This document shows positions 38,686 through 53,432 of a DNA stretch of 64,000 nucleotides, in pieces. Numbering within the stretch: position 1 is the stretch's first letter; the number at the start of each line of letters is the position of its first letter. Source of the stretch: Aromatoleum toluolicum (lineage in GTDB: Bacteria > Pseudomonadota > Gammaproteobacteria > Burkholderiales > Rhodocyclaceae); contig NZ_WTVS01000019.1 in the NCBI RefSeq assembly GCF_012911005.2, positions 1-64,000 of the forward strand, given 5' to 3'. The position numbers and the translations under genes were made by a program. The notes below the pieces were generated by a model. The model was not told the DNA's origin and did not search any database. It saw nothing but the letters and a program-made list of their open reading frames with translations.

Positions 38686-39924
38686 ATGCCCGTTAACCTC
38701 TCGACCCCGGTTGCCGCGGACCTGCGCCCGGTCGCAGGCGTTCGCCTTGGTGTTGCCGAAGCCGCGATCCGCAAGCTGAACCGTCGCGATCTGACCCTCA
38801 TCGAAGTTGCGTCCGGCAGCCGTGTGGCGGGCGTGTTTACGCTCAACCGGTTCTGCGCCGCGCCGGTCCAGGTGTGCAAGGATCACCTTCCCGGCGGCAA
38901 CGTCCGCGCGCTCGTGATCAATACCGGCGTCGCCAACGCGGGGACGGGCGAGGAAGGGCTGGCGAACGCCAACGCCACCTGTGCGGCCGTGGCCGGGCTG
39001 ATGGGCATTGCGCCCGAGCAGGTCCTGCCGTTTTCCACCGGCGTGATTCTCGAGCCCCTGCCCGTCGACCGCCTGGTGGCCGGACTCCCTGCTGCGCAGG
39101 CCAATCTGCGTGCCGACGGCTGGTTCGATGCGGCGCACGCGATCATGACGACCGATACCGTGGCCAAGGCCGTGTCGCGTCAGGTGACGATCGCGGGGCG
39201 CACGGTGACGCTGACCGGCATCAGCAAGGGCGCGGGCATGATTAAGCCCAACATGGCGACGATGCTCGGCTTCCTCGCGTGCGATGCGGCAATCTCGCAG
39301 TCCCTGCTGGACGCGCTCGCCCTCGAGGCGGCCGACCTGTCGTTCAACAGCATCACCGTCGACGGCGATACCTCGACCAATGACTCGTTCATCATCATCG
39401 CGACCGGCAAGGCCGGCAACGCCGAGATCAACGATCCGCTGGGCGAGGACTTCGGTGCGCTGCGCGATGCGATCATCGACGTCTCGATCAGCCTCGCCCA
39501 GGCGATCGTGCGCGACGGTGAAGGTGCCACCAAGTTCATGACGATTGCCGTCGAGGGCGGCAAGGACCGCGCCGAGTGCCGCAAGGTGGCCTATGCGATC
39601 GGCCAGTCGCCGCTGGTCAAGACCGCCTTCTTCGCCTCCGACCCCAACCTCGGGCGCATCCTCGCCGCGATCGGCTACGCGGGCATCGACGATCTCGACG
39701 TGAGCAGCCTGCGCGTGTGGCTGGGCAGCGCGCACGAAGAGGTGCTGGTTGCCGAGAACGGTGGCCGTGCGGCAACGTATCGCGAGGACGCCGGTGCGCG
39801 CGTCATGAAGGAATCCGAGATCACCGTGCGTGTCGATCTTGGCCGCGGCCTCGAGCGCGCCACGGTGTGGACCTGCGACTTTTCCTACGACTACGTGAAG
39901 ATCAACGCCGACTACCGCAGCTGA
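38686..39924 (+). CDS. argJ: Bifunctional ornithine acetyltransferase/N-acetylglutamate synthase
   Basis: A 412-residue arginine-pathway enzyme that recycles the acetyl group from acetylornithine to glutamate. The precursor cleaves itself before the threonine in [15 protein letters not shown] (near residue 190), giving alpha and beta chains. [19 protein letters not shown] and [10 protein letters not shown] are conserved, and the C-terminus NADYRS is the family ending. ATG 38686 gives the normal start. The last 23 bases overlap the 3' end of cheB on the other strand. Confidence 0.95.
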
Positions 39925-41002
39925 ATCTCACCAGCGCGGCGGGGATGTCGTCCAGCGGAAGGACGTTGCCCGCCGCGCCCCTCCGGATCGCCTCCCCGGG
40001 CATCCCGAAGACGACCGACGAGGCTGCGTCCTGCGCGATCGTTGTGGCGCCCGCGTCGCGCATTTCCAGCAGGCCGCGTGCCCCATCGTCTCCCATGCCC
40101 GTCATGATCACACCGAGTGCATTGCGACCGGCGAATCGGGCAACCGACCGGAAAAGCACATCGACCGAAGGTCTATGCCGGTTGACGAGGGGACCGTCAA
40201 CGACTTCGGCGTAATATTGCGCCCCCGCGCGCTTCACCATCAGGTGCCGACCGCCGGGAGCGATGAGGGCCTGTCCCGGCAAGACGCGGTCATGGTTGCG
40301 GGCTTCGCGGACGTGTATGGCGCTCACGGCGTCCAGACGCTCGGCGAACATCGCCGTGAAGCGTGCAGGCATGTGCTGGACAACGACGATTCCGGCGACT
40401 GTCGCGGGCAGACGGGTTAGGACGGCTTCCAGCGCCTGCGTGCCGCCGGTCGACGTGCCGAGCGCGATGATCCTTTCTGTCGTTGCATGCATTTCGCCCG
40501 CAGTGCGGGGGCCGATCAAGGCGTCGGCGCTGAGTTTCGGGGGCGGCGGCGGCAGCGTCGGCCGCGAGAGCGGGCGGAGATTGGCGACGGCGGCGGCGCG
40601 GATGGCTGCAATGATGTCGTCGGCGGCACCGGCGAGAAAGTCGCGGAGGTTCGCACGGGGTTTTGCGATGACGGTGAAGGCGCCCGCCGTCAGGGCGTCC
40701 AGGGCGGTCTTGCTGCCTTGCTCGGCGACCGACGAGCAGATGATCACCGGCGTCGGGCGCTCCGCCATCAGGTGGCGCAGGAAACTCAGGCCGTCCATGC
40801 GCGGCATTGCGATGTCCAGGATGATCACATCGGGCCATGCATCGCGCATGCGTCGCAGCGCGAGGATCGGGTCGGAGGCGGTTCCGCCAACCGCCAGGCC
40901 GGGGGCGTTTGTGATCGCGCAGGCGATCGCCTGGCGCGCCACGGCAGAGTCGTCCACGATCATCACCCGGATGGGTGCTGCGAAGCCCCTCCTCGTGTTC
41001 AC
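39902..41002 (-). CDS. cheB: Chemotaxis protein-glutamate methylesterase CheB
   Basis: A 366-residue two-domain enzyme. The receiver (about 10-130) has [14 protein letters not shown] and phospho-acceptor Asp63 in [15 protein letters not shown]. The linker is proline-rich (PPPPP, about 150-156). The esterase has Ser184 in [12 protein letters not shown], His210 in VVQHMPARF and Asp305 or Asp306 in [11 protein letters not shown]. It demethylates and deamidates receptor glutamates. The start appears to be GTG at 41002, 10 bases after the cheR stop. Last gene of the chemosensory operon. Confidence 0.95.
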
Positions 41003-41012
41003 CGCATCGACC

Positions 41013-41819
41013 CTATTGTGGTTTCTGGTAAACGGTTGGCCGCAGCGAGCGCAAACGGTCAGTGATGCCGTTCAGCGATTCGGAGTGGCCGACGATGAAG
41101 TAGCCGCCCGGCTTGAGGCTTGGCAACATGTTCTCGACCACCTTGGTTTTCGTCTCCGCATCGAAGTAGATCATGACATTGCGCAGGAAGATCACGTCGA
41201 ATTCGCCGATGCCTGTGATCGGTCCGGTGAGGTTCACCTGTCCGAAGCGTACCCGCTGGCGCAGGTCCGGGCGGACGAGGAGCTTGCCCTCCTGCGATCG
41301 AACACCCTTCATGCAGTAGCGCCGGAGATATTCCGGCGGGATGCCGTGCGCGCGTTCGAGCGGATAGATGCCGTCCTGGGCGCGGGCGAGCACCGCCAGG
41401 CTGATGTCCGACGCGAATATCTCCCATGACGTGTTCGGCAGGTTCGCGGCGAGTACCATTGCTATCGTATACGGTTCCTCGCCGCTGGAGCATGCTCCAC
41501 TCCATATGCGCAGCGGATTGCTGGTGCGGCGCGCAGGCAGGATGCTATCCCGCAGGTATTCGAAGTGCTGCGGCTCGCGGAAGAAATAGGTTTCGTTCGT
41601 GGTGAGGAGGTCGACAAAAGTCTGCAGTTCGTCGCCGGGGGCCCCCGAGGCGAGCAGGCGGTAATACTCCGAGAAGCTGGTGAAACCGTAATGCTTGAGG
41701 CGTTTCGATAGACGCCCCACCAGCAGGATCTTTTTTGCCGACGACATGCTGATGCCGGCGATGCGGTAGATGAGGCGCTGGAAGAGTGCGAATTCCTGAT
41801 CGGTGATCGTGGCGTCCAT
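41013..41819 (-). CDS. cheR: Chemotaxis protein methyltransferase CheR
   Basis: A 268-residue SAM-dependent enzyme methylating receptor glutamates. The N-terminal helical domain ([25 protein letters not shown]) and the catalytic domain with [19 protein letters not shown] (SAM site), FASDIS and [14 protein letters not shown] are intact, and the beta subdomain that binds receptor pentapeptides is included. I prefer ATG 41819; an in-frame ATG at 41852 would add 11 residues. The 4HB receptor in this operon has a matching DFERF tail. Confidence 0.95.
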
Positions 41820-41901
41820 GAGGCGACCGTCCGGGTTGGGCGGGAATGGCATTGTTGCGGGCTTGGCCCGTGCGCGGCGTGTCGGGGAGGCGCGCCGTGT
41901 G

Positions 41902-42465
41902 TCAGAACAGTTCGATGTTCGTCTGGCGGGGTTTTTGCAGCGTACGTTCGTAGCGCTGTTCGGCGTGGATCAGGGAACTCGTCACTTCCTCGCCACGGCG
42001 GCAGAACGCATCGCCCGTGCACGGGTCGAAAACGACCTTGCGCGACCATCGACCGAGGAGGTCAGACGCCACGAGCGGAATGTTCTCGCGCGTGAGCCAG
42101 TCGCGGGCGAAGGTCGCATTTTGCTCGCCGATGTGCACGTGCGTGAGGCCCGCGACGACGGCGCCCCCGCCGAAGACCTTCGCCTGCAGGCGACTGCGTC
42201 GTCCGCCGCGTCCGAGCATGCCGTTGAGCAGGGTTTCCATCGCAAAGTCGCCGCAAAGCAGGGTATCGATGTCCGGTCGCGCATGGCGGCCATCACTGCG
42301 TGGCAGCATGAAGTGGTTCATGCCGCCGATCCGCGACCCCGTGTCCCAAAGACATACCGCCACGCAGGAACCCAGCAGGGTTGCGATCGGGCGTTCGGAT
42401 TCGACTGCCCATCCGCCGGGCCCGATCGTGCGCGCGGTGCGTTCCAGTTCGCGTGGATCGGCCAT
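41902..42465 (-). CDS. cheD: Chemoreceptor glutamine deamidase CheD
   Basis: A 187-residue papain-like deamidase. LLGSCVAVCLWDTGSRIGGMNHFMLPR holds the catalytic Cys (LGSCV) and His (GGMNHF) of the family. VFGGGAVV and IGEQNATFARDWLTRENIPLVASDLLG follow as usual. The C-terminal tail ends in NIELF, almost the same as the NVELF end of the HAMP-less receptor in this operon. No CheC, the usual CheD partner, is encoded nearby. Confidence 0.93.
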   Translation of the reverse strand: MADPRELERTARTIGPGGWAVESERPIATLLGSCVAVCLWDTGSRIGGMNHFMLPRSDGRHARPDIDTLLCGDFAMETLLNGMLGRGGRRSRLQAKVFGGGAVVAGLTHVHIGEQNATFARDWLTRENIPLVASDLLGRWSRKVVFDPCTGDAFCRRGEEVTSSLIHAEQRYERTLQKPRQTNIELF

Positions 42466-42471
42466 GATGTT

Positions 42472-43044
42472 TCAGGCCGTGGTGCGGTAGGCGCCGTCAT
42501 CCGCACCGTTGGCGACATTGGCGAGGGCCCCGATCTCCTCGACCGAGAGGACGCGGTCGATGTTCAGAACGATCACGAACTTGCCTCCCACCTTGCCCAT
42601 GCCGAGGATGAAGTCGGTGCGGATCTTCGCGCCGAACGCCGGCGGCGGCTCGATTTCGCTGCCCGGAATCTCCAGCACCTCCGAAACGGCATCGACCATG
42701 ATGCCGATGTCGTGGGTGAACTCGCCTTCGCGCACCTCGACGATGACTATGCAGGTGCGCCGCCCGACTTCGCTGCGCCGCCCCTCGAAGCGTGCCGTCG
42801 GGTCGATGACCGGGACGACGGCTCCGCGCAGGTTGATCACTCCGCGAATGAAGGCCGGCATCATCGGAATCTCGGTCAGGTTGCCGTATTCGATGATTTC
42901 CTTCACATGCAGGATCCCGACTGCGAACATCTCGCCCGACAGCGAAAACGTGAGGTACTGCTGTGCGCCCTGTGCGGCATCGTGGACCGAAGCCGGGGCT
43001 GGCGTGGGCACCGAAGCCCTGGTGGAGGTCGTGAGCTGGGTCAT
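42472..43044 (-). CDS. cheW: Chemotaxis adaptor CheW
   Basis: A 190-residue coupling protein linking receptors to CheA. After a Ser/Thr/Ala/Pro-rich N-terminus of about 30 residues, the SH3-like CheW fold starts at QQYLTFSLSGEMFAVGILHVKEII and includes GVINLRGAVVPVIDPTARF and DFILGMGKVGGKFVIVLNIDRVLS. ATG 43044 is preferred: GGAG lies 7 bases upstream and the preceding receptor gene stops just before it. Upstream in-frame ATG 43056 would overlap that gene's end. Confidence 0.94.
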   Translation of the reverse strand: MTQLTTSTRASVPTPAPASVHDAAQGAQQYLTFSLSGEMFAVGILHVKEIIEYGNLTEIPMMPAFIRGVINLRGAVVPVIDPTARFEGRRSEVGRRTCIVIVEVREGEFTHDIGIMVDAVSEVLEIPGSEIEPPPAFGAKIRTDFILGMGKVGGKFVIVLNIDRVLSVEEIGALANVANGADDGAYRTTA

Positions 43045-43057
43045 CACTGGCTCCATG

Positions 43058-44698
43058 TCAGAAGCGCTCGAAGTCGCGCTCACCGACTGCGACGGCCTGA
43101 CGCATGGCCATCTGGCGGACGGGGGCCGGTGCGGCGGAAGCGGCGGGTGCCGCCGACGCCACGCGCAGGGCCGGGCGTGCGCTGCGTGCCGCGGACGAAC
43201 CCTGTTCGAGCTGAAAGAACGACATCAGCTGCTGCAATTGTTCGGCTTGTGCGCCCATTTCCTCGGCTGTCGCGGCGAGCTCCTCGGATGCCGAGGCGTT
43301 CTGTTGCGTAGCCTGGTTGAGCTGTCCCATGGCGCCGTTGATCTGGCCGACGCCGGCAGTCTGCTCCTGCGAGGCGGCGGCGATTTCCTGGACCAGATCG
43401 GAAGTCTTCTTGATCGACGGCACCATCTCATGGAGCAGCGAGCCAGCGCGTTCGGCGAGCTTGACGGACGAGCCCGCAAGGTTGCCGATTTCCTGCGCGG
43501 CGACCTGCGAGCGTTCGGCGAGCTTGCGCACTTCCGCGGCGACAACCGCGAAGCCCTTGCCGTGTTCGCCGGCGCGGGCCGCCTCGATTGCGGCGTTCAG
43601 CGCTAGCAGGTTGGTCTGGTAGGCGATGTCGTCGATGATGGAAATCTTCTCGGCGATGGACTTCATCGCTTCGACGGTTTCCGTGACGGCGGCGCCGCCT
43701 TCGCCGGCCTCGACGGCGGCCTTCGAGGCCATGCCGTCCGTGACCTTGGCGTTCTCGGTGTTCTGGGCGATCGACGCGGTCATCTGCTCCATGCTGGAAG
43801 TGGTTTCTTCGACCGAAGCCGCCTGCTCGGACGAGGATTGCGATAGTGACTGTGCGGTGGCGGATACCTGACCCGCCGCGTTAGAAAGATTGTCGGCGGC
43901 GGTGCGGACTTCGCTGATCGTTCCCGCGAGCTTGTTCACCATGTTCTGCATCGCAGCCATTAGCTGGCCGACTTCGTCCTTCGAATTCGCCTCGACCCGC
44001 ACGGTCAGGTCGCCATCCGCGAGGCGGTTGGCCGCACCGACCGCCTCGCCAACCGGGCGGGTGATCGAGATCGTGACCCACCATGCAAACGCGGCAGCGA
44101 GGACGAACGCCGCGATCGCGATCGCGACGATGATGTTCTGCGTCTGGGTGGCTACACCGACCGCCTCTTTGCCCGATTCGTGCATCAGCTCGGTCTGGCG
44201 TTCGATCAGTTTGTTGATCGCTTCGAGGTAATCGGCTTGGCTCTTGCGCATCGAGCCCATGAGAAGGTCAATCGCGTCCTGCTTCTTGCCGTCATTGATC
44301 AGGCCCGTGAGTTTCGCGAGATCGCTGCGGTAGTGCGTGCGCGTCTCGGTCATCGTGGCCAGCAGTTTCTTGCCGTCCGGGGTCGTAATCGTGCGCTCTA
44401 GATTTTCGATGCGTTCGGAAATGCGCTTGGAGGCGTCGGGGATGCGTGCGAGTTCCTTCTGCACGTCAGTGGCGCTGCTGACAAGCACGGCGTTGCGGGT
44501 CGCACGTGCGACGAGGTTAACTTGATCGATGATGTCGTTGGCCCAGACCGTCTCGGGGAATTTGTCGTTTGCCAAGTCATCGACCGCGCCGCTGATCTGC
44601 CCGACGCGCACGTAGGACACCATGGACAGGATAGCGAGCATTAGCAGGACGAAGCCGAAGCCCAGCCCGAGGCGGATCCCGATTCGAAGGTTCTTCAT
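43058..44698 (-). CDS. Methyl-accepting chemotaxis protein with 4HB sensor and HAMP
   Basis: A 546-residue classical receptor. Helix 1 (about 8-30), a periplasmic four-helix-bundle sensor (about 32-188), helix 2 (about 189-208), HAMP ([24 protein letters not shown]) and a signalling hairpin with tip [31 protein letters not shown] follow. An Ala/Pro-rich linker of about 35 residues ends in DFERF, a CheR-tethering pentapeptide of the x-F-x-x-F type. Start ATG 44698 has GGGAG 8 bases upstream. Ligand unknown. Confidence 0.93.
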
Positions 44699-44753
44699 GT
44701 TATTGACTCCCACGTGTTTGCGATGAGTGATTATTGCGGTCGATCCGTTCCGC

Positions 44754-46955
44754 TTAACGGACGGCGGAGGTGGTGAGACAGACGCTTCGCTCGCGCCGCG
44801 ACGCGATGTCGACCAAGGCCGGCACGTCGAGGATCAGTGCCACGTCGCCCGAGCCGAGGATGGTCGACCCCCCGATCCCGCGCAGGTGACGGAAGAGGGC
44901 GCCGAGCGGTTTGATGACGGTCTGGAACTCCCCGTGCAGCTTGTCGATGACGATGCCGACCTTGCTGCCGGCGTACTGCACCACGACTACGCTGCGGCGG
45001 GACGGGGGCTCGCCGTCGATTTCGAACAGTTCGCGCAGATTGACGAAGGGCAGCACTTCGCCGCGCAGGTTGAGGTAGTTGCGGTCCAGCCGCTCTGCGC
45101 CGAGTTCGATGCACTCGACGACGGAGTCGAGCGGGATCACGTAGGAGGATTTATCGACGCTGGTGAGGAAACCATCGATGATTGCCAGCGTCAGCGGCAG
45201 GCGGATCGTGAAGGTCGAGCCCTCGCCGTCGCGCGTTGAGACCGTGATCGTGCCACGCAGCGCCTGGATATTGCGGCGTACGACATCCATGCCGACGCCG
45301 CGTCCGGAAATGTTCGTGACCTTTTCGGCGGTCGAAAATCCGGCTTCGAAGATCAGGTTGATGAGTTCGTCGTCGCCAAGAGGCATCGACTCGTCGATCA
45401 GCCCTTTCTCGATCGCCTTGTGGCGAATGCGCTCGCGCGAGAGCCCGCTACCGTCGTCGCTTACCTCGATGACGATCGAACCCGAATCATGATAGGCATT
45501 CAGCCCCACCCTGCCTTTCTTGCTCTTGCCGCGAGCGAGTCGCACCGCCGCCGGTTCGATGCCGTGGTCGATCGCATTGCGCACGAGGTGCATGAGCGGA
45601 TCGCCCAGCTTTTCCACGACCGACTTGTCGAGTTCGGTCTCGGCCCCGGTCACCACCAGCGCGATGTCTTTGCCGAGCTCGCGCGAGGCGTCGCGCACGA
45701 CCCGGTTGAAGCGGTTGAAGGTTTCGCCGATCTGAACCATGCGCAGTTGCAGTGCCGCATCGCGGATGTTCTCGACAAGGCGGGACAGCACCGACGTGCT
45801 CTCCACGAGTTCGACCTGTCCGCTCTTCTGTGCGAGGAGGTTCGCACTCGCACCCGCGATCACGAGTTCGCCGACGAGGTCGATCAACTGGTCGAGCTTG
45901 TCGGCCTGCACGCGAACCATGCGCGACTCGATCGCCTTCTTCTCGCTTACGGCGGCCTGACGCGAGGCTGCGGCCTCGACGACCTCGCGATGCACGACCT
46001 GCTGTTCGACGAGCACTTCGCCGATGGGCGGAGCTGGCAGCGCCTGCGCATCGTCGAACTCTCCCTCGGCTGCGGGCAGAGCAGGGGGCTGCTGTGCGGC
46101 GAGGCCCGCATCGAGCTCCGCCGGTGTCAGGGCTCCGCAACGCAGCAGCATTTCGCCCAGGCGCATCGTGTCCTCGGGCAATTCGTTGATCAGCTGGATG
46201 TAGTCCTGCACCTTCGATCGGGGCGGCAGGATGCGCAGGCTGCAGTCGTCGCGCACGAATTCGAACACGTGTTCGATCTCGGCCTTGCTGGCGCGGGTCT
46301 GGAGACGGATCTCGAAGCCGAGATAGCACGATTCGGGGTCCATCTGCTCGGCAGGTGGGATTGCATCGCTGATCGTTTCGAGCGACAGGATTTCGCCCAG
46401 CGTGCCCAGGTAGCGCAGGAAGGACAGCGGATCCATGCCGCCACGCAATACGTTCTCGCCGAAGCGCACCGAGATGTGCCAGCCGTCGGTGGAAACCACG
46501 CCACCGCCGCAACTGCGGACTTCCGGCGGGCGTTCGGCCGGCACGCCACCTTCCTCCGTCGCTTCGTCGGGCGGCACACATCGCCGCAGCGCCGCGGTCA
46601 ATTCGTCACCGCGGGAGAGCACCTCTGCCAATGGTTCCGCCTGTCCGCTTGCAAGGGTGTCGAGGAGGGCACCGAGCTGATCGCAGCACGATAGCAGCAG
46701 CGTCGCCAGTTCGCCCGTGACGGGAATGCGGCCGTTGCGCAACAGATCGAGGAGGTTCTCCACCTGGTGCGTGAAGTTTTCGATGAAATGGCATTCGATG
46801 ACGCCCGAACCGCCCTTGATCGTGTGTGCGGCGCGGAATATGCCGTTGAGGTTGTCGCCGTCGTCGGGGGCTTGTTCCAGGCGCAGCAGGCCTGCCTCCA
46901 TCTCCGCGAGCATGTCGCGGCTTTCGGTGACAAAAGTGCTGGTGAGTTCGTCCAT
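44754..46955 (-). CDS. cheA: Chemotaxis histidine kinase CheA
   Basis: A 733-residue kinase. The Hpt domain has phospho-acceptor His44 in [12 protein letters not shown] second module (about 155-300) lies where the CheY/CheB-docking domain is usual. The dimerisation domain begins near 355. The ATPase has [15 protein letters not shown] (N box), [14 protein letters not shown] (G1) and GRGVGMDVV (G2). The CheW-like C-terminal domain starts about 600 ([16 protein letters not shown]) and includes [13 protein letters not shown]. No receiver is fused. It phosphorylates CheY and CheB. Confidence 0.95.
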
Positions 46956-46972
46956 GTCGTAAGTCCCCGCGC

Positions 46973-47293
46973 TCAGGCCGGAATCACCATCGGGTCGCCA
47001 AACGCGGCCGCGAGGTTGCAGAAATCGATCGCTTGCCGCACGGCAGCGCTGTGACCGCTGAGGGCCAGTTGTTTGCCGCTGGCGCGGGCTTCGCGTTTCA
47101 GCAGGATCAACAACTGCAGGCCGGCGGTGTCGATGTCGCCGACCGCGGACAGGTCGATCTCGAGGTTCTCGGTTTCGCCGAGGGCATGCAGCAGCGCGTC
47201 CTTGTGTTCGCTGGCGCGATAGATCGTCATGTCCGTATCGAGCATGATTCGTGAAGGCCGGCCGGGCATCGGTGTCGCTGTTTCGGTAGTCAT
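46973..47293 (-). CDS. STAS-domain protein (anti-anti-sigma type) in the chemosensory operon
   Basis: A 106-residue single STAS domain. MLDTDMTIYRASEHKDALLHAL is followed by the core LEIDLSAVGDIDTAGLQLLILLKREARASGKQLAL. At the position of the phosphorylated Ser in SpoIIAA proteins there is Thr in DTAG. ATG 47293 has GGAAG 6 bases upstream; longer frames run into the preceding gene. It lies between the HAMP-less receptor and cheA and probably acts as a small switch or scaffold. Its partner kinase or phosphatase is not in the window. Confidence 0.88.
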   Translation of the reverse strand: MTTETATPMPGRPSRIMLDTDMTIYRASEHKDALLHALGETENLEIDLSAVGDIDTAGLQLLILLKREARASGKQLALSGHSAAVRQAIDFCNLAAAFGDPMVIPA

Positions 47294-47303
47294 GGCGCTT
47301 CCG

Positions 47304-48602
47304 TCAGAAGAGTTCCACATTGCCAGCCGAGGCGCTCGCGACAGCTGCCGGCGCGTTCCCGCCCCGCATCGCGGCGTCGTGCGTGTGGCGCTGCTGGTTC
47401 ATCACGTAGCTGTCGAAGATCTCCGCGAGCTGCGTCGATAGCGGCACCACAGAGTCCTCGCTTGACGCATCCTCGCCACGCTCGAGCACGTCCGCGAGCG
47501 CTTCGGTGTGCGCGTCCAGACGTTGCAGTGCCTTGATCACATGCTCGATCTGCTGCCGCGTTACGTCCTGGAACTGGACGCTGGCCATCGCGTGGACGAA
47601 CATTTCGGACAGGCGGCTGCTGCTCGCGGTAATGGTGCCGAGGGTGCTCCGCTCCCGTTCGTTCAGGTGCGCATACGACTCGCCCAGCGAACTGAGTTGC
47701 TCGGCAAAGCGGTGCAGGCTGTCCTGTTCCTCGCCGATGTGGCTGTTGGCGGCCTTGTCGCGGTACTGGCCTTCGATCGATGCCGCGACCGAGATGATGC
47801 CGTCGTTGATCTTCCTGACCGCCGCCTCGGTTTCCTGCGAGAGCTTGCGCACCTCGTCCGCCACCACCGCAAAGCCGCGTCCCGATTCGCCCGCCCGCGC
47901 TGCCTCGATGGCGGCGTTCAAGGCGAGCAGATTGGTTTGCCCGGCGATGTGCTTGATCAGCTCCACCAGCGATTGCAGCGAGCGGGTCTCGCGCACCGCG
48001 GCCGCGGCGCGTTCCTCGTCCAGTCGCGCTTCCTCGATTCGGCTCTGAATGAACGCTTCGAGACGCGCGATCAGATCACGGTTCTCGTCGATCTGGTGTG
48101 CGGACTGTTCGGACATCGATTCCGACTCGGCGGCCTCGTTGGCTACGAAACGGTTGAGTTCGGAAACCACCTCGTCGATGGTCTGCAGGCGCATCGTCAG
48201 CTCGCAAGCAGCCGTCTCCGTCTGTTCGGTGACGCTGACCAGATGCCGTGACAGCACCTGCGTGTAGGTCGGAATTTCGCGCAGCTCCGGCACCGCAATG
48301 CGCCTGCATGCCCTGCTGGACGGGCAATGGAGGTTCTCGTCCTTCAGGTCTGGTTCCAAGCCGAAGCAGGTGTCCTGGTAAAGACCGGACGACAGTGCGC
48401 GCTGCATCGCAGTGAAGATGACGACGACAACGGCGACAGCCGCGGTGTCGAGAGTCCGGTCGGAGATGCCGAGGGCCTCGTGGTACCAGTCATGCATGAG
48501 GAAATGCAGCAGGGCGATCGTCACCACGGACGCGATCCCGGCGACCAGCGACCGCTTGCGATAGACCCGGTAACGTTCGCCGAGAGGGCTGTGCGCACTC
48601 AT
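47304..48602 (-). CDS. HAMP-less chemoreceptor-like protein with CheZ-like FQDVTRQ motif
   Basis: A 432-residue protein. Two membrane helices (about 18-36 and 52-69) enclose only about 15 periplasmic residues, so there is no extracytoplasmic sensor. A cysteine-containing stretch (Cys79, Cys93, Cys99) follows, and no HAMP. The signalling hairpin tip is intact ([22 protein letters not shown], about 219-240). In the descending helix, FQDVTRQ (344-350) matches the CheZ active-site pattern, with Asp346 and Gln350 spaced like CheZ Asp143 and Gln147. The C-terminus is a flexible Ala-rich tail ending NVELF. ATG 48602 follows AAGGAG. Phosphatase activity is inference. Confidence 0.85.
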
Positions 48603-48615
48603 GGCCGGCTCCTTC

Positions 48616-48984
48616 TTACTTGATCACGAGCTTGATCGTGTTGAGCAGTTCGTCGGCGGTCGCCGGCTTCACGATCCAGCCGGAAGCCCCTGCTGCCTTG
48701 GCTTCCATCTTGCGGCTCTGCTGTGATTCGGTGGTGAGGAACAGGATCGGCATGAATTTGTACGCGGGCAGCTTGCGCACCTCGCGGATCAGTTCGATGC
48801 CGTTCATCCCGGGCATGTTGAGGTCAGTGATGAGCAGGTCGGCACGCACCGAGGCGCCGAATTTCTTCAATGCCTCCTCCGCGCTGGCCGCCTTTTCGAC
48901 TGCAAAACCCGCCTTTGTCAGGATGCCCGAGATGCTCAGCAGGATCGTTGCCGAGTCGTCAACAAGAAAGACTGTCTTGGACAT
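48616..48984 (-). CDS. cheY: CheY-type single-domain response regulator
   Basis: A 122-residue receiver with no output domain. [18 protein letters not shown] has the acidic pair, Asp54 in [16 protein letters not shown] is the phosphorylation site, LFLTTES the Thr switch and [12 protein letters not shown] the conserved Lys. ATG 48984 follows GGGAAG; an ORF extension to 49014 is less likely. It is the first gene of the nine-gene operon, with 13 bases to the next gene. The output target is unknown and need not be the flagellar motor. Confidence 0.93.
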
Positions 48985-49041
48985 ATTTGCGCTTCCCATT
49001 TCCCTGCGCCGCATATGCGATTGGGCTCGCTGCGACGTGCA

Positions 49042-49170: not shown

Positions 49171-49785
49171 TCAGCGGGCGGCGGGACGGGCAAGCACGAT
49201 CGCAACGAGCTCGGCGACCGAATGTGCCCCCGACTTCTGCATGATATTGGCACGATGCGTTTCCACCGTGCGCTCGCTGATTCCGAGGTCGATGGCGATC
49301 GCCTTGTTGCGATGACCGGCAACGATGCCGTTCAGTATTTCGCGTTCGCGCGGGGTCAGCGTGTCCATCCAGGCAATGCCATGAGGACGCTCGGCCGGGT
49401 GCTGGCTGCTGTGGCGCAGCGCGTCCTGCGCGCGCTCGATCAGATGCTGGATGTTGAAGGGCTTCTCGATGAAGTCGAAGGCACCGAACCGCATTGCGCT
49501 GACGGCGGTCGGTACGTCGGCATTTCCCGTGACGAAGATCACCGGTACATGGGGGTGGCGTGTGCGAAGCACGTCGTGCACCTCGGTGCCACCCATGTGC
49601 GGCATGCGCAGATCGAGCAGCACGCAGGAGGGGGGGCTCGGGTGCCAATCGCGGAGAAAGGCCTCGCCCGTCGCATAAGCGAAAACCTGCATGCCAACGC
49701 TTCTGAACACCTCCTCGAGGAAGCGCCGTACCTGATCGTCATCGTCGACGATGTATATGGAAGCGTGGGGTATATTTGCGGGCAT
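49171..49785 (-). CDS. FixJ/NarL-family response regulator (receiver plus LuxR HTH)
   Basis: A 204-residue transcription regulator. The receiver (about 8-125) has IYIVDDDDQVRRFL, phospho-acceptor Asp58 in CVLLDLRMPHMGG, VIFVTGNAD and FIEKPFN. The LuxR-type helix-turn-helix starts at LTPREREILNGIVAGHRNKAIAIDLGISERTVETHRANIMQK. The receiver type (FixJ, TodT, StyR, TdiR-like) commonly pairs with soluble PAS kinases. Two such kinases lie divergently across a 151-base gap, so they are the probable partners. Its regulon is unknown. Confidence 0.9.
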   Translation of the reverse strand: MPANIPHASIYIVDDDDQVRRFLEEVFRSVGMQVFAYATGEAFLRDWHPSPPSCVLLDLRMPHMGGTEVHDVLRTRHPHVPVIFVTGNADVPTAVSAMRFGAFDFIEKPFNIQHLIERAQDALRHSSQHPAERPHGIAWMDTLTPREREILNGIVAGHRNKAIAIDLGISERTVETHRANIMQKSGAHSVAELVAIVLARPAAR

Positions 49786-49936: not shown

Positions 49937-51544
49937 ATGATTGAAGTGCTGCAGGCATTGGGCGACGGCAATCCTGCGATCAGCCTAGCGCCCCTGTTCG
50001 ACGCGATGCTCGAAGGAGTCGTCGTGCGAGATGCGCATGGTCGGGTCGTCGGCTGCAATCGCATGGCCCGCCGCATCCTCGGGTTGCCGTCGGGCGATCT
50101 TCTCGCCGGAGGCTTGCTGGCTCCGATGCCCGACTATCTCCGGGAGGATGATTCCATCCTTCGGCTCGATGAGCACCCGGCCAACCTGACCTTGTCCAGT
50201 GGCGAAGCCTTGCACGGAGTCGTGCTCGGTGTCGTGCGTGCCGCTGGGGAGATCTGCTGGATCAACCTGAACAGCCAGCCTCTGCGTGACACCGACGGAG
50301 CGCTCGTGGGCGTTGTCGAGACATTTGCGGATATCACGCCGATGAAGAGCGCGCAGGCGGCATTGCGCGCAGCCGAGGCGCACAATCGCACGCTCGCTGC
50401 GGCGATCGCGCAGGCGGGCTGCGCTGTTGTCGTAACCGATCGCCACGGTCGCATCGAATATGTCAATCCGGCGTGCTGCAGGGCGTACGGGTATGCGGAG
50501 GAGGAGCTGCTCGGCGCAAAGCCGAGCATCTTCAAGTCCGGTGAAACATCTGCCGAGGTCTATGCCGAACTGTGGCAGACGATACTGGCGGGAAGGGTGT
50601 GGTGCGGCGAATTGTCGAACCGCAGCCGTGACGGCTGCCTCATCCGCGAGTCTGTTTCCGTTGCGCCGCTCCGTGACGAGGCGGGCGTCGTGCGTCATTT
50701 TGTTGCCGTCAAGGAAGACATTACCCAAATGCGCGCCGAAGAGCGGCGGCGCCACGAGTTGTTCGAACGTGTCGCACGGCTCGAGCGCATGGAACTCGTC
50801 GCTACCTTGTCGAGTGGAATTGCCCACGATTTCAACAACGTCCTGGTTGCGATCCTCGGCTATTCGGAGCTGGCCGACGCGCATCTGAAGGTCGATGGCC
50901 GCCTGCCCCGCGTCGAGGGCTATATCGACGAAATCCGCATCGCAGGCAATCGCGCGCGTGGGCTCATCCAGCAACTTCTGGATTTCAGTCGCAGCGGTAC
51001 CGCACAGCCGAGACTGACGCAACTCGAGTCGGTCGGTCGCGAAGCGGTCGGCCTGCTGCGCGCGACATTGCCCGACTCCGTGGCGGTGATCGACGAGATC
51101 GAGCGCGACCTGCCCGCCCTGTCAGTGGATCCGGCGCACGTATACCAGATCATCATGAATCTCCTCGTCAATGCGCGCGATGCAGTCAATGGGCGCGGCA
51201 CGATCCGTGTCGGCGCGCGCAGGGTGCTCGCTGCCGATTGCCCGGTCTGTGCGTCGTGTCGCCGCGAGTTCGACGGCGAATTCATCGTTCTGTCTGTCTC
51301 TGACAACGGTTGCGGCATTCCCCTGTCGAACCGATCGCGCCTGTTCGAACCCTTTTTCACGACGAAGGAGCCGGGGCGTGGTACCGGAATGGGCCTGCCC
51401 GTCGTACATGGCATGACGCATCTCTACGACGGGCATGTCCGGATCGAGTCGGAGCCCGGGGGCGGTACTCGCGTGGAGGTGCTGCTGCCCGTCGTCCTGA
51501 CGCAGGTTCCCGGCATAGACAGTCCGACGGCCCTGGGCGCTTAG
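49937..51544 (+). CDS. Soluble PAS-PAS histidine kinase, copy 1
   Basis: A 535-residue cytosolic kinase without membrane helices. PAS1 (about 17-137), PAS2 (about 150-268), a short coiled region, then the H box SSGIAHDFNNVL with His297, and an HATPase domain with MNLLVNARDAV (N box), VSDNGCGI (G1) and GTGMGL (G2). Between N and G1 boxes lies CPVCASC (Cys435, 438, 441), an uncommon insertion. It aligns residue for residue with the next kinase. The divergent FixJ-type regulator is the likely target. Signal unknown; a cytosolic redox or aromatic-ligand signal is plausible. Confidence 0.9.
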   Translation: MIEVLQALGDGNPAISLAPLFDAMLEGVVVRDAHGRVVGCNRMARRILGLPSGDLLAGGLLAPMPDYLREDDSILRLDEHPANLTLSSGEALHGVVLGVVRAAGEICWINLNSQPLRDTDGALVGVVETFADITPMKSAQAALRAAEAHNRTLAAAIAQAGCAVVVTDRHGRIEYVNPACCRAYGYAEEELLGAKPSIFKSGETSAEVYAELWQTILAGRVWCGELSNRSRDGCLIRESVSVAPLRDEAGVVRHFVAVKEDITQMRAEERRRHELFERVARLERMELVATLSSGIAHDFNNVLVAILGYSELADAHLKVDGRLPRVEGYIDEIRIAGNRARGLIQQLLDFSRSGTAQPRLTQLESVGREAVGLLRATLPDSVAVIDEIERDLPALSVDPAHVYQIIMNLLVNARDAVNGRGTIRVGARRVLAADCPVCASCRREFDGEFIVLSVSDNGCGIPLSNRSRLFEPFFTTKEPGRGTGMGLPVVHGMTHLYDGHVRIESEPGGGTRVEVLLPVVLTQVPGIDSPTALGA

Positions 51545-51812
51545 GCTTCCTCGCAGGGCGCACGGAGTGTGGTCGTGCGCACGCGACGCGTTCTGGCTCC
51601 GAGGGGGCGGTAGTCGCGCCGCGTAGCAGTCGGGTGCCCGCACCGAACTGACCTCGTGCGGTGACGTTGCCTTCGCGATGTCGACCGTTGCCCGGATCTC
51701 CGGTCGTCTCTTGATAGAGGCCTGCCAAGGAAGCGATTCGGCGTGTCAGGCGCGTTGGGGCGGTGTGGATTGTGTCGCTGAAATTCGAGTGGATGTGATC
51801 GTATGCGGAACG

Positions 51813-51818
51813 TATAAT
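51813..51818 (+). promoter_or_regulatory. -10 element before the second PAS kinase
   Basis: A perfect TATAAT in the otherwise GC-rich 301-base gap after kinase 1. It lies 28 bases before the ATG at 51846. The -35 (TGGATG, 51790-51795) is poor. It shows that kinase 2 can be expressed separately and argues against the longer open frame starting at 51678. Confidence 0.5.
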
Positions 51819-51845
51819 CGAATTTCCAGACCGATAATGCGCGCG

Positions 51846-53432
51846 ATGGCCGACGAGTTGCGGTTCCTGCTACAGACGAGGGGGCAGGACGATCTGTCCC
51901 CCCTGTTTGATGTGATGCTCGAAGGTGTCGTCGTGCGCGACGGCGCCGGGCGAATCATCGCCTGCAACCGCACGGCGCAACAGATATACGGGCTTTCGGC
52001 CGGGGAGCTGGAAGGGCAGACTGCCGCGACACTCCCTGTCGCCTTTCTACACGAGGACGGCTCGCCGTGTCCGCCCGAGCGCCATCCGGCAATGGTCACG
52101 CTCCGTACCGGACAGCCCCAGCGCGGCGTTGTCATGGGCATTGCCCATTCCGGGCGCGAAGCGGTGTGGATCCAGGTTAACAGTCAGCCGATTGCCGATA
52201 CGACGGGCCGGATCACGTCCGTGATCACCAGTTTCGCGGACATCACGCCCATCAAGCGTGCGGAGGATGCGCTACGGGCGAGCGAGGTGCGCAACCGGAC
52301 CCTTGCCGAAGCGATCGCGCAGTCCGGCTGCTCGGTCCTTATTACGGATAAGGACGGGCGCATCGAATACGTGAATCCCGCCTGCTGCAAGGCCTACGGT
52401 TATACCGAGGACGAGCTGATCGGGGCGCGGCCGAGCATTTTCAAGTCCGGCGAAACGACGCACGAGGAGTACGCAAGCCTGTGGCGCACGATTCTCGCCG
52501 GAGAGACCTGGCGCGGCGAGATGTCGAATCGCAGCCGCGACGGTCGGTTGATCCGCGAGGCGGTATCCGTGTCGCCGGTGCGGGACGAGCGCGGCGAGGT
52601 CCGTCATTTCGTCGCGCTGAAGGAAGACATCACGCAGCTGCGCGAGGACGAACGCCGACGCCATGAGCTGTTCGAGCGCGTCGCGCGGCTCGAGCGCATG
52701 GAACTCGTTGCCACCCTGGCGGGCGGCATCGCGCACGATTTCAATAACGTCCTCGCTGCCATCCTCGGCTACTCGCAGCTCGCGGCCACGCAGCTCAAAC
52801 AGGACGGCGGGCAGGCGCGCGTGCTGAAGTACGTCGAGGAGATCCGCTCGGCCGGCCAGCGTGCGCGGGAACTGATCCAGCAACTCCTGAGTTTCCGCCG
52901 CGGCGGCGCGGTGCAGCCGGGGAGTTCCGAACTTGCCGTGATCGGCCGTGAGGCGGTGGGCCTGCTGCGCGCGACCCTGCCGGATACGCTTGCGGTGGTT
53001 GCCGAAATCGACCCCGACCTGCCGCGGCTCTCCGTCGATCCGGCGCATCTCCATCAGATCATGATGAACCTGCTGATCAATGCGCGCGACGCGATCGCCG
53101 GCATCGGCACGATTCGCCTGACGGCCCGCCGCGCGTCCTTCGAGGGCACGCAGCGTTGCGACTCCTGTGGTCACGAGTTCAGGGGGAGTTATGTGGCGAT
53201 CACGGTGACGGACGTAGGAGTAGGGATCGCGCCCGAGCACCGCGAGAAACTGTTCGAGCCGTTCTTCACGACCAAGGATGTCGGTCAGGGTACCGGCATG
53301 GGGTTGGCCGTCGTGCACACGATGACCCACCTGTACGACGGCCACGTCCGCGTTGAATCCGAGCCCGGCAAGGGCACCGCCGTGCAGGTCGTGCTGCCGG
53401 TGCGGCTGCTCCAGGAGGGGGCGACCGCGTAG
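51846..53432 (+). CDS. Soluble PAS-PAS histidine kinase, copy 2
   Basis: A 528-residue paralogue of the preceding kinase, colinear without gaps for about 518 residues and roughly 60-65% identical in blocks compared by eye. His297 lies in GGIAHDFNNVL, the N box in MNLLINARDAI, and the G2 box in GTGMGLAVV. The insertion keeps two of the cysteines as CDSC (Cys438, Cys441). ATG 51846 was chosen because it makes the two proteins start in register and lies after the TATAAT; ATG 51837 is possible. Probable partner is the divergent FixJ-type regulator. Confidence 0.9.
   Translation: MADELRFLLQTRGQDDLSPLFDVMLEGVVVRDGAGRIIACNRTAQQIYGLSAGELEGQTAATLPVAFLHEDGSPCPPERHPAMVTLRTGQPQRGVVMGIAHSGREAVWIQVNSQPIADTTGRITSVITSFADITPIKRAEDALRASEVRNRTLAEAIAQSGCSVLITDKDGRIEYVNPACCKAYGYTEDELIGARPSIFKSGETTHEEYASLWRTILAGETWRGEMSNRSRDGRLIREAVSVSPVRDERGEVRHFVALKEDITQLREDERRRHELFERVARLERMELVATLAGGIAHDFNNVLAAILGYSQLAATQLKQDGGQARVLKYVEEIRSAGQRARELIQQLLSFRRGGAVQPGSSELAVIGREAVGLLRATLPDTLAVVAEIDPDLPRLSVDPAHLHQIMMNLLINARDAIAGIGTIRLTARRASFEGTQRCDSCGHEFRGSYVAITVTDVGVGIAPEHREKLFEPFFTTKDVGQGTGMGLAVVHTMTHLYDGHVRVESEPGKGTAVQVVLPVRLLQEGATA

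Follow-up and report, generated by a model that had tools for sequence, protein, structure and literature searches.

The window, a stretch of 64,000 nucleotides of Aromatoleum toluolicum DNA, encodes on its reverse strand (47304..48602) a receptor of the McpA-like kind, which belongs to an F7 chemosensory cluster and carries a CheZ-type motif. Judged from sequence, there is an even chance that this protein has turned into a receptor-scaffolded CheZ-type phosphatase of phosphorylated CheY (CheY-P). The motif is conserved, keeps its register in the receptor hairpin, and lies beside the gene of a CheY with an intact active site. That the motif site is functional in some way is near certain; we infer in addition CheY binding, catalysis, and the CheY next door as the cognate substrate. 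What is new is that McpA-like receptors, an orphan family already known, have a conserved and correctly placed CheZ-type site, next to cheY and where the cluster gives no cheZ match. If the reading is true, the receptor hairpin would itself contain an enzyme site and could show one way in which CheZ may have originated. The motif suggests that the off-switch missing from this signalling system may be the McpA-like “receptor”.

The protein comprises 432 residues, and its sole Pfam domain over the cut-off is MCPsignal (E 4.5e-25); HAMP, a periplasmic sensor domain and a CheC/CheX domain were not found in it by the Pfam scan. Two membrane helices with a short loop are predicted by sequence reading at about residues 17-36 and 52-74 (48381..48554; all features of the gene and its cluster are on the reverse strand), and the AlphaFold2 model places helices at 6-44 and 49-75. 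TExAA is situated on the N-helix (residues 128-132, 48207..48221), 110 residues ahead of the hairpin tip, which is formed by the invariant alignment columns Q222-F244 (residues 222-244, 47871..47939). The C-helix contains FQDVTRQ (residues 344-350, 47553..47573) with D346 and Q350 as the candidate catalytic pair, followed by YVMxxQRxxH (residues 399-408, 47379..47408), invariant or nearly so in the alignment, and by the C-terminal NVELF (residues 428-432, 47307..47321; C-terminus GNVELF). Sequence, Pfam and the AlphaFold2 model thus all describe a sensorless, HAMP-less hairpin with two transmembrane helices and a normal receptor tip. The model consists of long helices (pLDDT 81.2, pTM 0.45), and a Foldseek search with it matched receptors, with no CheZ among the best 50 of 466 matches. 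The ORF translation and Pfam agree with an earlier note, made on this DNA from the letters alone, which had placed FQDVTRQ at 344-350 in such a hairpin and had pointed to the D-x3-Q spacing in an FQDxTxQ context as in CheZ. The FQDxxxQ pattern occurs in one of the 16 MCP genes over the cut-off in the genome.

The gene order of the operon is cheY (48616..49014; Response_reg 7.1e-26, active-site residues matching E. coli CheY), the FQD receptor, a STAS-domain protein (46973..47320; STAS_2 1.4e-15) whose gene overlaps the receptor gene by 17 bp, cheA (44754..46955), an ordinary receptor with 4HB sensor and HAMP (43058..44713), cheW (42472..43083), cheD (41902..42465), cheR (41013..41852) and cheB (39902..41002), with cheA, the ordinary receptor, cheW, cheR and cheB identified by Pfam. 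The likely substrate gene, cheY, lies directly upstream, as the earlier note had it, and ends 13 bp from the receptor gene. CheZ, CheC and CheX were all below the Pfam cut-off among the nine che-cluster genes scanned (39902-49014). The translated ordinary receptor ends in DFERF, which fits the CheR pentapeptide pattern, unlike the NVELF of its FQD neighbour. Beside the cluster, the ORF list contains a response-regulator-like ORF (49171-49785, reverse strand) and two adjacent similar ORFs (49937-53432) that resemble PAS-domain histidine kinases by eye.

The window protein is assigned to the McpA-like receptors of F7 clusters by features and context rather than by alignment to a named McpA: the gene order by STAS and cheA, the membrane-anchored sensorless receptor, and V/I at tail position 2, where in NVELF it replaces the aromatic residue of the pentapeptide. 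The F7 class is likewise assigned from gene order, not from a class model. The McpA-like receptors CttP/PA0180 of P. aeruginosa, VCA1088 of V. cholerae and SO_2117 of S. oneidensis are also transmembrane receptors of F7 clusters, with genes for STAS proteins (anti-sigma antagonists) nearby (PMC7184735, PMC7534058, PMC9855816) and a conserved C-terminus other than the pentapeptide, having valine at position 2 in P. aeruginosa. An mcpA-like gene is present in nearly all stage 1 and 2 F7 clusters, stages in which cheZ occurs only in F6 systems, and in stages 3-4 the F7 cheY is retained after mcpA is lost (PMC7184735). McpA-like receptors are confined to genomes with F7, and for VCA1088 the excerpt states that there is no experimental report (PMC7534058). 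The available parts of PMC7184735, PMC7534058 and PMC9855816 make no mention of a CheZ-type site on these receptors. Likewise, no report of a receptor with a CheZ motif, nor of phosphatase activity of McpA-like receptors, was found in the literature within reach, of which most subscription journals are not part and several papers are in excerpt.

The conservation of the motif was assessed with a motif-blind profile, built from the N-terminal ~200 residues of seven homologues and run over 369 genomes of the class. Eight non-self ORFs were matched, and seven of them keep [FY]QDxxRQ, as FQDVIRQ (L179), FQDVVRQ (L180, L185), FQDITRQ (L181, L183) or YQDVVRQ (L182, L184); Asp346 and Gln350, which the earlier note expected homologues to conserve, are therefore retained in 7/8 sequences found without using the motif. 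The one lacking it (L186) is a weak match (4.7e-6) to a 294-aa paralogue ORF in the same genome as L180. A 13-row alignment came from a search with a C-terminal fragment containing the motif; off the tip, its invariant residues are Q343-F344-Q345-D346, Q350, L392, H408 and E430-L431-F432. A larger table of 110 receptors combines 80 from named loci, 13 from the first searches including the window protein, and 17 others (one G220 protein is entered twice, as L150 and L181). Position 350 is Q in 110/110 and the three residues between D and Q vary, in a table that required [FY]QDxxx[QE]. The 80 named loci were picked with QFQD[VI][TSV]RQ and, being motif-selected, are not used as proof of motif conservation. 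Candidatus Accumulibacter records are named among the best matches, and the rest are mostly Rhodocyclales-like. The motif was also considered as a target of methylation or of deamidation by CheD and rejected as such, since the methylation consensus overlaps the motif in 0/93 receptors and residue 351, the Q next to Q350, is R, M, L or I in 18/110 while Q350 is constant. Anywhere in the protein, the consensus is present in 5/93 McpA vs 7/14 other MCPs of the genome; McpA is not a typical adapting receptor, because this usual consensus is mostly absent.

CheZ dephosphorylates CheY using Asp143 and Gln147 in FQDLTGQ. In E. coli CheZ, T62-A66 and FQDLTGQ (141-147) lie about equidistant from the turn. 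The register of the receptor site is similar: the D of the motif is 108 residues past the tip in 80/80 named loci, and the T of T[ED]xA is 110 residues ahead of it in 75/80, two of the five misses being fragments. A smaller set of 11 listed rows, including the window protein, has the same register in 9/11, the other two being L013 and L014. Since these spacings to the tip are nearly equal (110 vs 108), TExA and FQDxxxQ face each other across the hairpin, as read from sequence. D and Q occupy non-core heptad phases in McpA and CheZ alike, so that the motif is predicted on the hairpin face away from the helix core. In FQDR[TV]SQ receptors the D is also 106 residues from the tip, as in a second receptor type (L013, L014; context L065, L066) having FQDxxTQ at 106, no TExA and a GD[VI]ELF end, which sits in other che clusters.

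Profile comparison further reveals how far the likeness to CheZ extends. Free alignment of the McpA N-helix profile (95 sequences) with 36 CheZ aligned a 19-residue stretch on RDRLSYVATMTEQAAERTL (P 0.016) and placed the McpA TExAA on TEQAA of CheZ, a weak match that was reached by 1 and 5 of 100 shuffles. For the C-helix profile the alignment extended through 68 columns and kept FQD in register (P 8e-4), whereas P was 0.55 and 0.23 for control profiles built from 14 of the other MCPs of the genome, L192 (no tip by pattern) being left out. The comparison with CheZ proposed in the earlier note thus bore out the motif in register, but the C-helix similarity vanished once the seven motif residues were masked, 40 and 47 of 100 shuffles of CheZ equalling it. 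Homology to CheZ over the whole helix thus finds no support; with the masked similarity null, the site and its register are claimed and common descent with CheZ is not. The hydrophobicity pattern around the motif, with the motif omitted, was compared between 108 receptors and 36 CheZ at 29 offsets, of which zero offset gave the highest correlation (r 0.62). Around TExAA the fit to the CheZ N-helix has r 0.54, best of 21 offsets; it covers 97 receptors, after prior removal of ten that did not have the 110 spacing or TExA, and the 28/36 CheZ fitting the pattern.

The CheZ matches of the window protein are below the cut-offs of Pfam (E 0.011, 16 of 30.7 bits, worse than three unrelated families) and NCBIfam (E 1.2e-4, 21.7 of 350 bits). 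Sub-threshold Pfam CheZ matches occur also on FQD receptors elsewhere (G129, 4.9e-5; G220, 4.3e-4; G424, 7.2e-4 twice). With the 36-sequence CheZ profile, the 80 named McpA score a median of 12.9 bits, falling to 1.7 with the motif masked and 0.5 when reversed; 15 other MCPs of the genome have a median of -1.8 bits (one at 9.2), and six N-terminally found homologues a median of 0.2 bits (best 17.9). The CheZ signature AxxF(Y)Q (PMC7750401) is kept in its F/Y and Q, and the Ala position is Ser in 87/110 and Ala in 3/110. The likeness to CheZ, by sequence, is one of site, facing partner and phase, not of the remaining sequence. CheZ (E. coli, PDB 1KMI) shares FQDxTxQ with D-x3-Q, T-x-x-A-A on the opposite helix, the two-helix hairpin and a gene adjoining cheY. 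In contrast to CheZ, the window protein has the complete receptor architecture, tip and membrane anchor included, and FQD receptors are without significant C-helix similarity outside the motif, mostly without the Ala of AxxFQ, and have another sequence as C-terminal tail. Among other phosphatases, HisKA_3 sensor kinases (NarX type) have a D-x3-Q phosphatase motif on a helix, yet differ in being built on a histidine kinase dimerisation domain with no receptor tip, and CheC, CheX and FliY use an ExxN motif on a different fold. The latter likewise dephosphorylate CheY-P, by inserting an acid and an amide (PMC3035606).

Adjacency to cheY is a general feature of the FQD proteins. Of the 59 FQD receptors whose named locus spans 9 kb or more, 55 have a cheY no further than 400 bp away (median gap 8 bp); the same is true of 16/20 FQD proteins from other loci, two of these proteins being short relatives, with two more at 401 and 431 bp. 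In total this gives 71/79 FQD proteins vs 3/95 other MCPs there (3/76 and 0/19). The named loci are closely related, and so their common gene order is not independent evidence. The same adjacency is observed in a second kind of cluster, with the order cheW-cheB-cheR-cheY-cheA-cheY-FQD receptor (L208, L210-L212, L229, L232, L235). Exceptions to cheY adjacency are L103, L113, L123, L145, L207 and L209, and L231 has no che gene nearby. A phmmer search of those loci with one CheZ query (E<=1e-4) gave no cheZ match, the only one being in a separate cheY-cheZ locus of the genome (L206). A plasmid-titled record of Aromatoleum buckelii (pU120, L082) contains cheD, cheR, cheB, cheY, the FQD receptor, STAS, cheA and cheW.

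The CheY proteins beside FQD proteins (these 71 and that of the window) keep D12, D13, D57, N59, T87, E89 and K109 in 72/72. They differ from 35 CheY of cheZ loci at positions 92, 95, 99, 111 and 119, the changes being K92Q in 69, I95 to R/K in 72, A99K in 69, F111A in 59 and K119T in 63 of the 72. We take this altered face to be the site for the CheZ tail and FliM. The altered face suggests that the CheZ of the genome is not suited to the CheY next to the FQD receptor.

That CheZ is encoded elsewhere in the genome by a full cheZ (contig C34, E 4e-76), beside another cheY; CheC was not found in the genome at E<=1. The receptor as the only CheY-P phosphatase of the genome is therefore rejected, and the absence of any other such phosphatase, which the earlier note stated for the cluster, holds there but not for the genome. 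CheZ was present in 12/12 FQD-receptor genomes checked in one set and over the cut-off in 13/18 of a second. CheZ, CheC and CheX were not detected in G782 (100% complete; receptor L184) or in G329 (91% complete; short protein L159); G368 and G396 are without CheZ and G300 has a sub-threshold CheZ match only, all three having CheC or CheX.

The C-terminus follows [IVL][EDTQ][LF]F in all 79 FQD proteins counted; L151, outside this count, ends in IILF. None of the 79 has the CheR pentapeptide [HFYW]xx[HFYW], vs 57/81 other MCPs. The McpA-like C-terminus is described as strikingly conserved, misfitting the CheR pentapeptide and of unclear role, and that of P. aeruginosa McpA binds none of its four CheR (PMC7184735). 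The cheD of the cluster ends in NIELF, similar to the receptor end NVELF, and 25/40 CheD matches, some of them in wrong frames, end in ELF or DLF. NVELF had been taken for a CheZ-like tail binding CheY, but a tail common to CheD is not specific evidence for this; it looks like a docking tag common to receptor and CheD. The second membrane helix ends near residue 74 and the tip is at 239, a span of 165 residues or ~25 nm of helix; arrays are 25 nm high for F6 and 38 nm for F7 (PMC7534058). The receptor length matches the F6 height and not that of F7, which fits the clustering of S. oneidensis McpA with the F6 kinase CheA3 although it is F7-encoded (PMC9855816). Swimming was unchanged when that McpA was deleted and increased when it was overproduced, as happens with other MCPs (PMC9855816); this is evidence against a strong phosphatase for F6 CheY. 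The proposal that the receptor both scaffolds the array and dephosphorylates CheY thus survives in part: the motif reading withstood the tests of conservation, register and cheY adjacency, and two genomes with an FQD protein yielded no CheZ, CheC or CheX. The tail is weak evidence for CheY binding, and scaffolding does not hold as proposed, as F7 arrays form without McpA (PMC7184735) and the S. oneidensis protein goes with the F6 kinase (PMC9855816).

In the proposed mechanism, the hairpin is presumably dimeric and would pack at its tip like any receptor. D346 and Q350 would form a CheZ-type site at a distance of ~108 residues (16 nm) from the tip, on a face off the helix core, and TExAA on the facing helix would back it. 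CheZ pairs its acid residue with the active-site lysine of CheY and positions the water through Gln147 (PMC3035606); by analogy, D346 would pair with that lysine and Q350 would place a water for attack on the phospho-aspartate of CheY.

Other readings of the site have to be weighed against this mechanism. An unlikely one is that the motif serves structure or signalling in the membrane-near hairpin, through helix packing or as a surface for CheD, CheR or CheB, and is CheZ-like in looks only. It draws on the distance of the motif from the tip, about that of the C-helix adaptation sites of ordinary receptors, on the tail that CheD also has, and on the null C-helix similarity outside the motif. 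The lack of overlap with the methylation consensus (0/93) and the non-core heptad phases of D and Q argue against such a role, as does the persistence of the motif where no CheD was found (L063, L064, L208-L212) and in tipless proteins. It is distinctly unlikely that the site docks or senses CheY-P without hydrolysis, as a receptor-borne sink or anchor linking the F7 CheY to the F6 array. Docking of this kind would account for cheY adjacency, for a conserved face, for the five altered positions of the neighbouring CheY and for an F7-encoded McpA residing with the F6 kinase in S. oneidensis (PMC9855816), but it needs no amide, and the retention of both D and Q while the intervening residues drift is what CheZ catalysis needs.

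That CheZ and McpA-like hairpins share an ancestor, the McpA site being a remnant inactive since CheZ took over, is quite improbable. CheZ co-occurs in 12/12 and 13/18 of the genomes checked and the facing TExAA and FQDxxxQ are common to both proteins, as this would have it; yet an idle site should decay, and the motif is kept in 7/8 motif-blind homologues, while G782 and G329 are without detected CheZ. An ordinary chemoreceptor with a chance FQDxxxQ is scarcely credible and was rejected: the tip is normal, as it would be in such a receptor, but the motif recurs in motif-blind homologues, is restricted to one of 16 MCPs of the genome, and has its conservation, register and gene neighbourhood against chance.

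On the phosphatase reading, a wider hypothesis can be put forward tentatively, with rather less than even confidence. McpA-like receptors would be the CheY-P phosphatases of the ancestral F7 and several other cheZ-less clusters, and the FQDxxxQ hairpin a portable module carried by a receptor scaffold or a short soluble protein; CheZ would have arisen by tip loss, either from this module or in parallel to it. Placed in the F6 array, the receptor would combine one end that couples to the kinase with another that acts as phosphatase, and one array would drain the signal of the other.

Two short proteins from genomes of another order (L158, 176 aa; L159, 157 aa) are soluble, lack a receptor tip and contain FQDxTRQ. 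They match the McpA N-helix with E 0.002 and 7e-4, respectively (best of 400 shuffles, 0.064), and the C-helix with 7e-8 and 5e-8, the latter matches being lost on motif masking. L158 ends in EVDLF and L159 in SIDLF, a McpA-like tail. Their genes (context L204, L205) sit downstream of cheA, between it and cheY and separated from the latter by 199 and 35 bp, in the place of a cheZ, but the proteins gave no match to the 36-sequence CheZ profile and none in Pfam at E<=0.1. By sequence, L158 and L159 are candidates for a new CheZ-like family, which is rare, being present in 2/78 genomes of their order. In other proteobacteria, L161 and L162 have xxDITRQR[IL]EHV mid-sequence, with the F and Q of FQD replaced. 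Three proteins of ~580-590 aa (L164, L167, L174) have no receptor tip; L164 and L174 contain MQYDDI[ST]xQR and a YTMxSERRxH...IELF tail, and L167 ends in EIELF.
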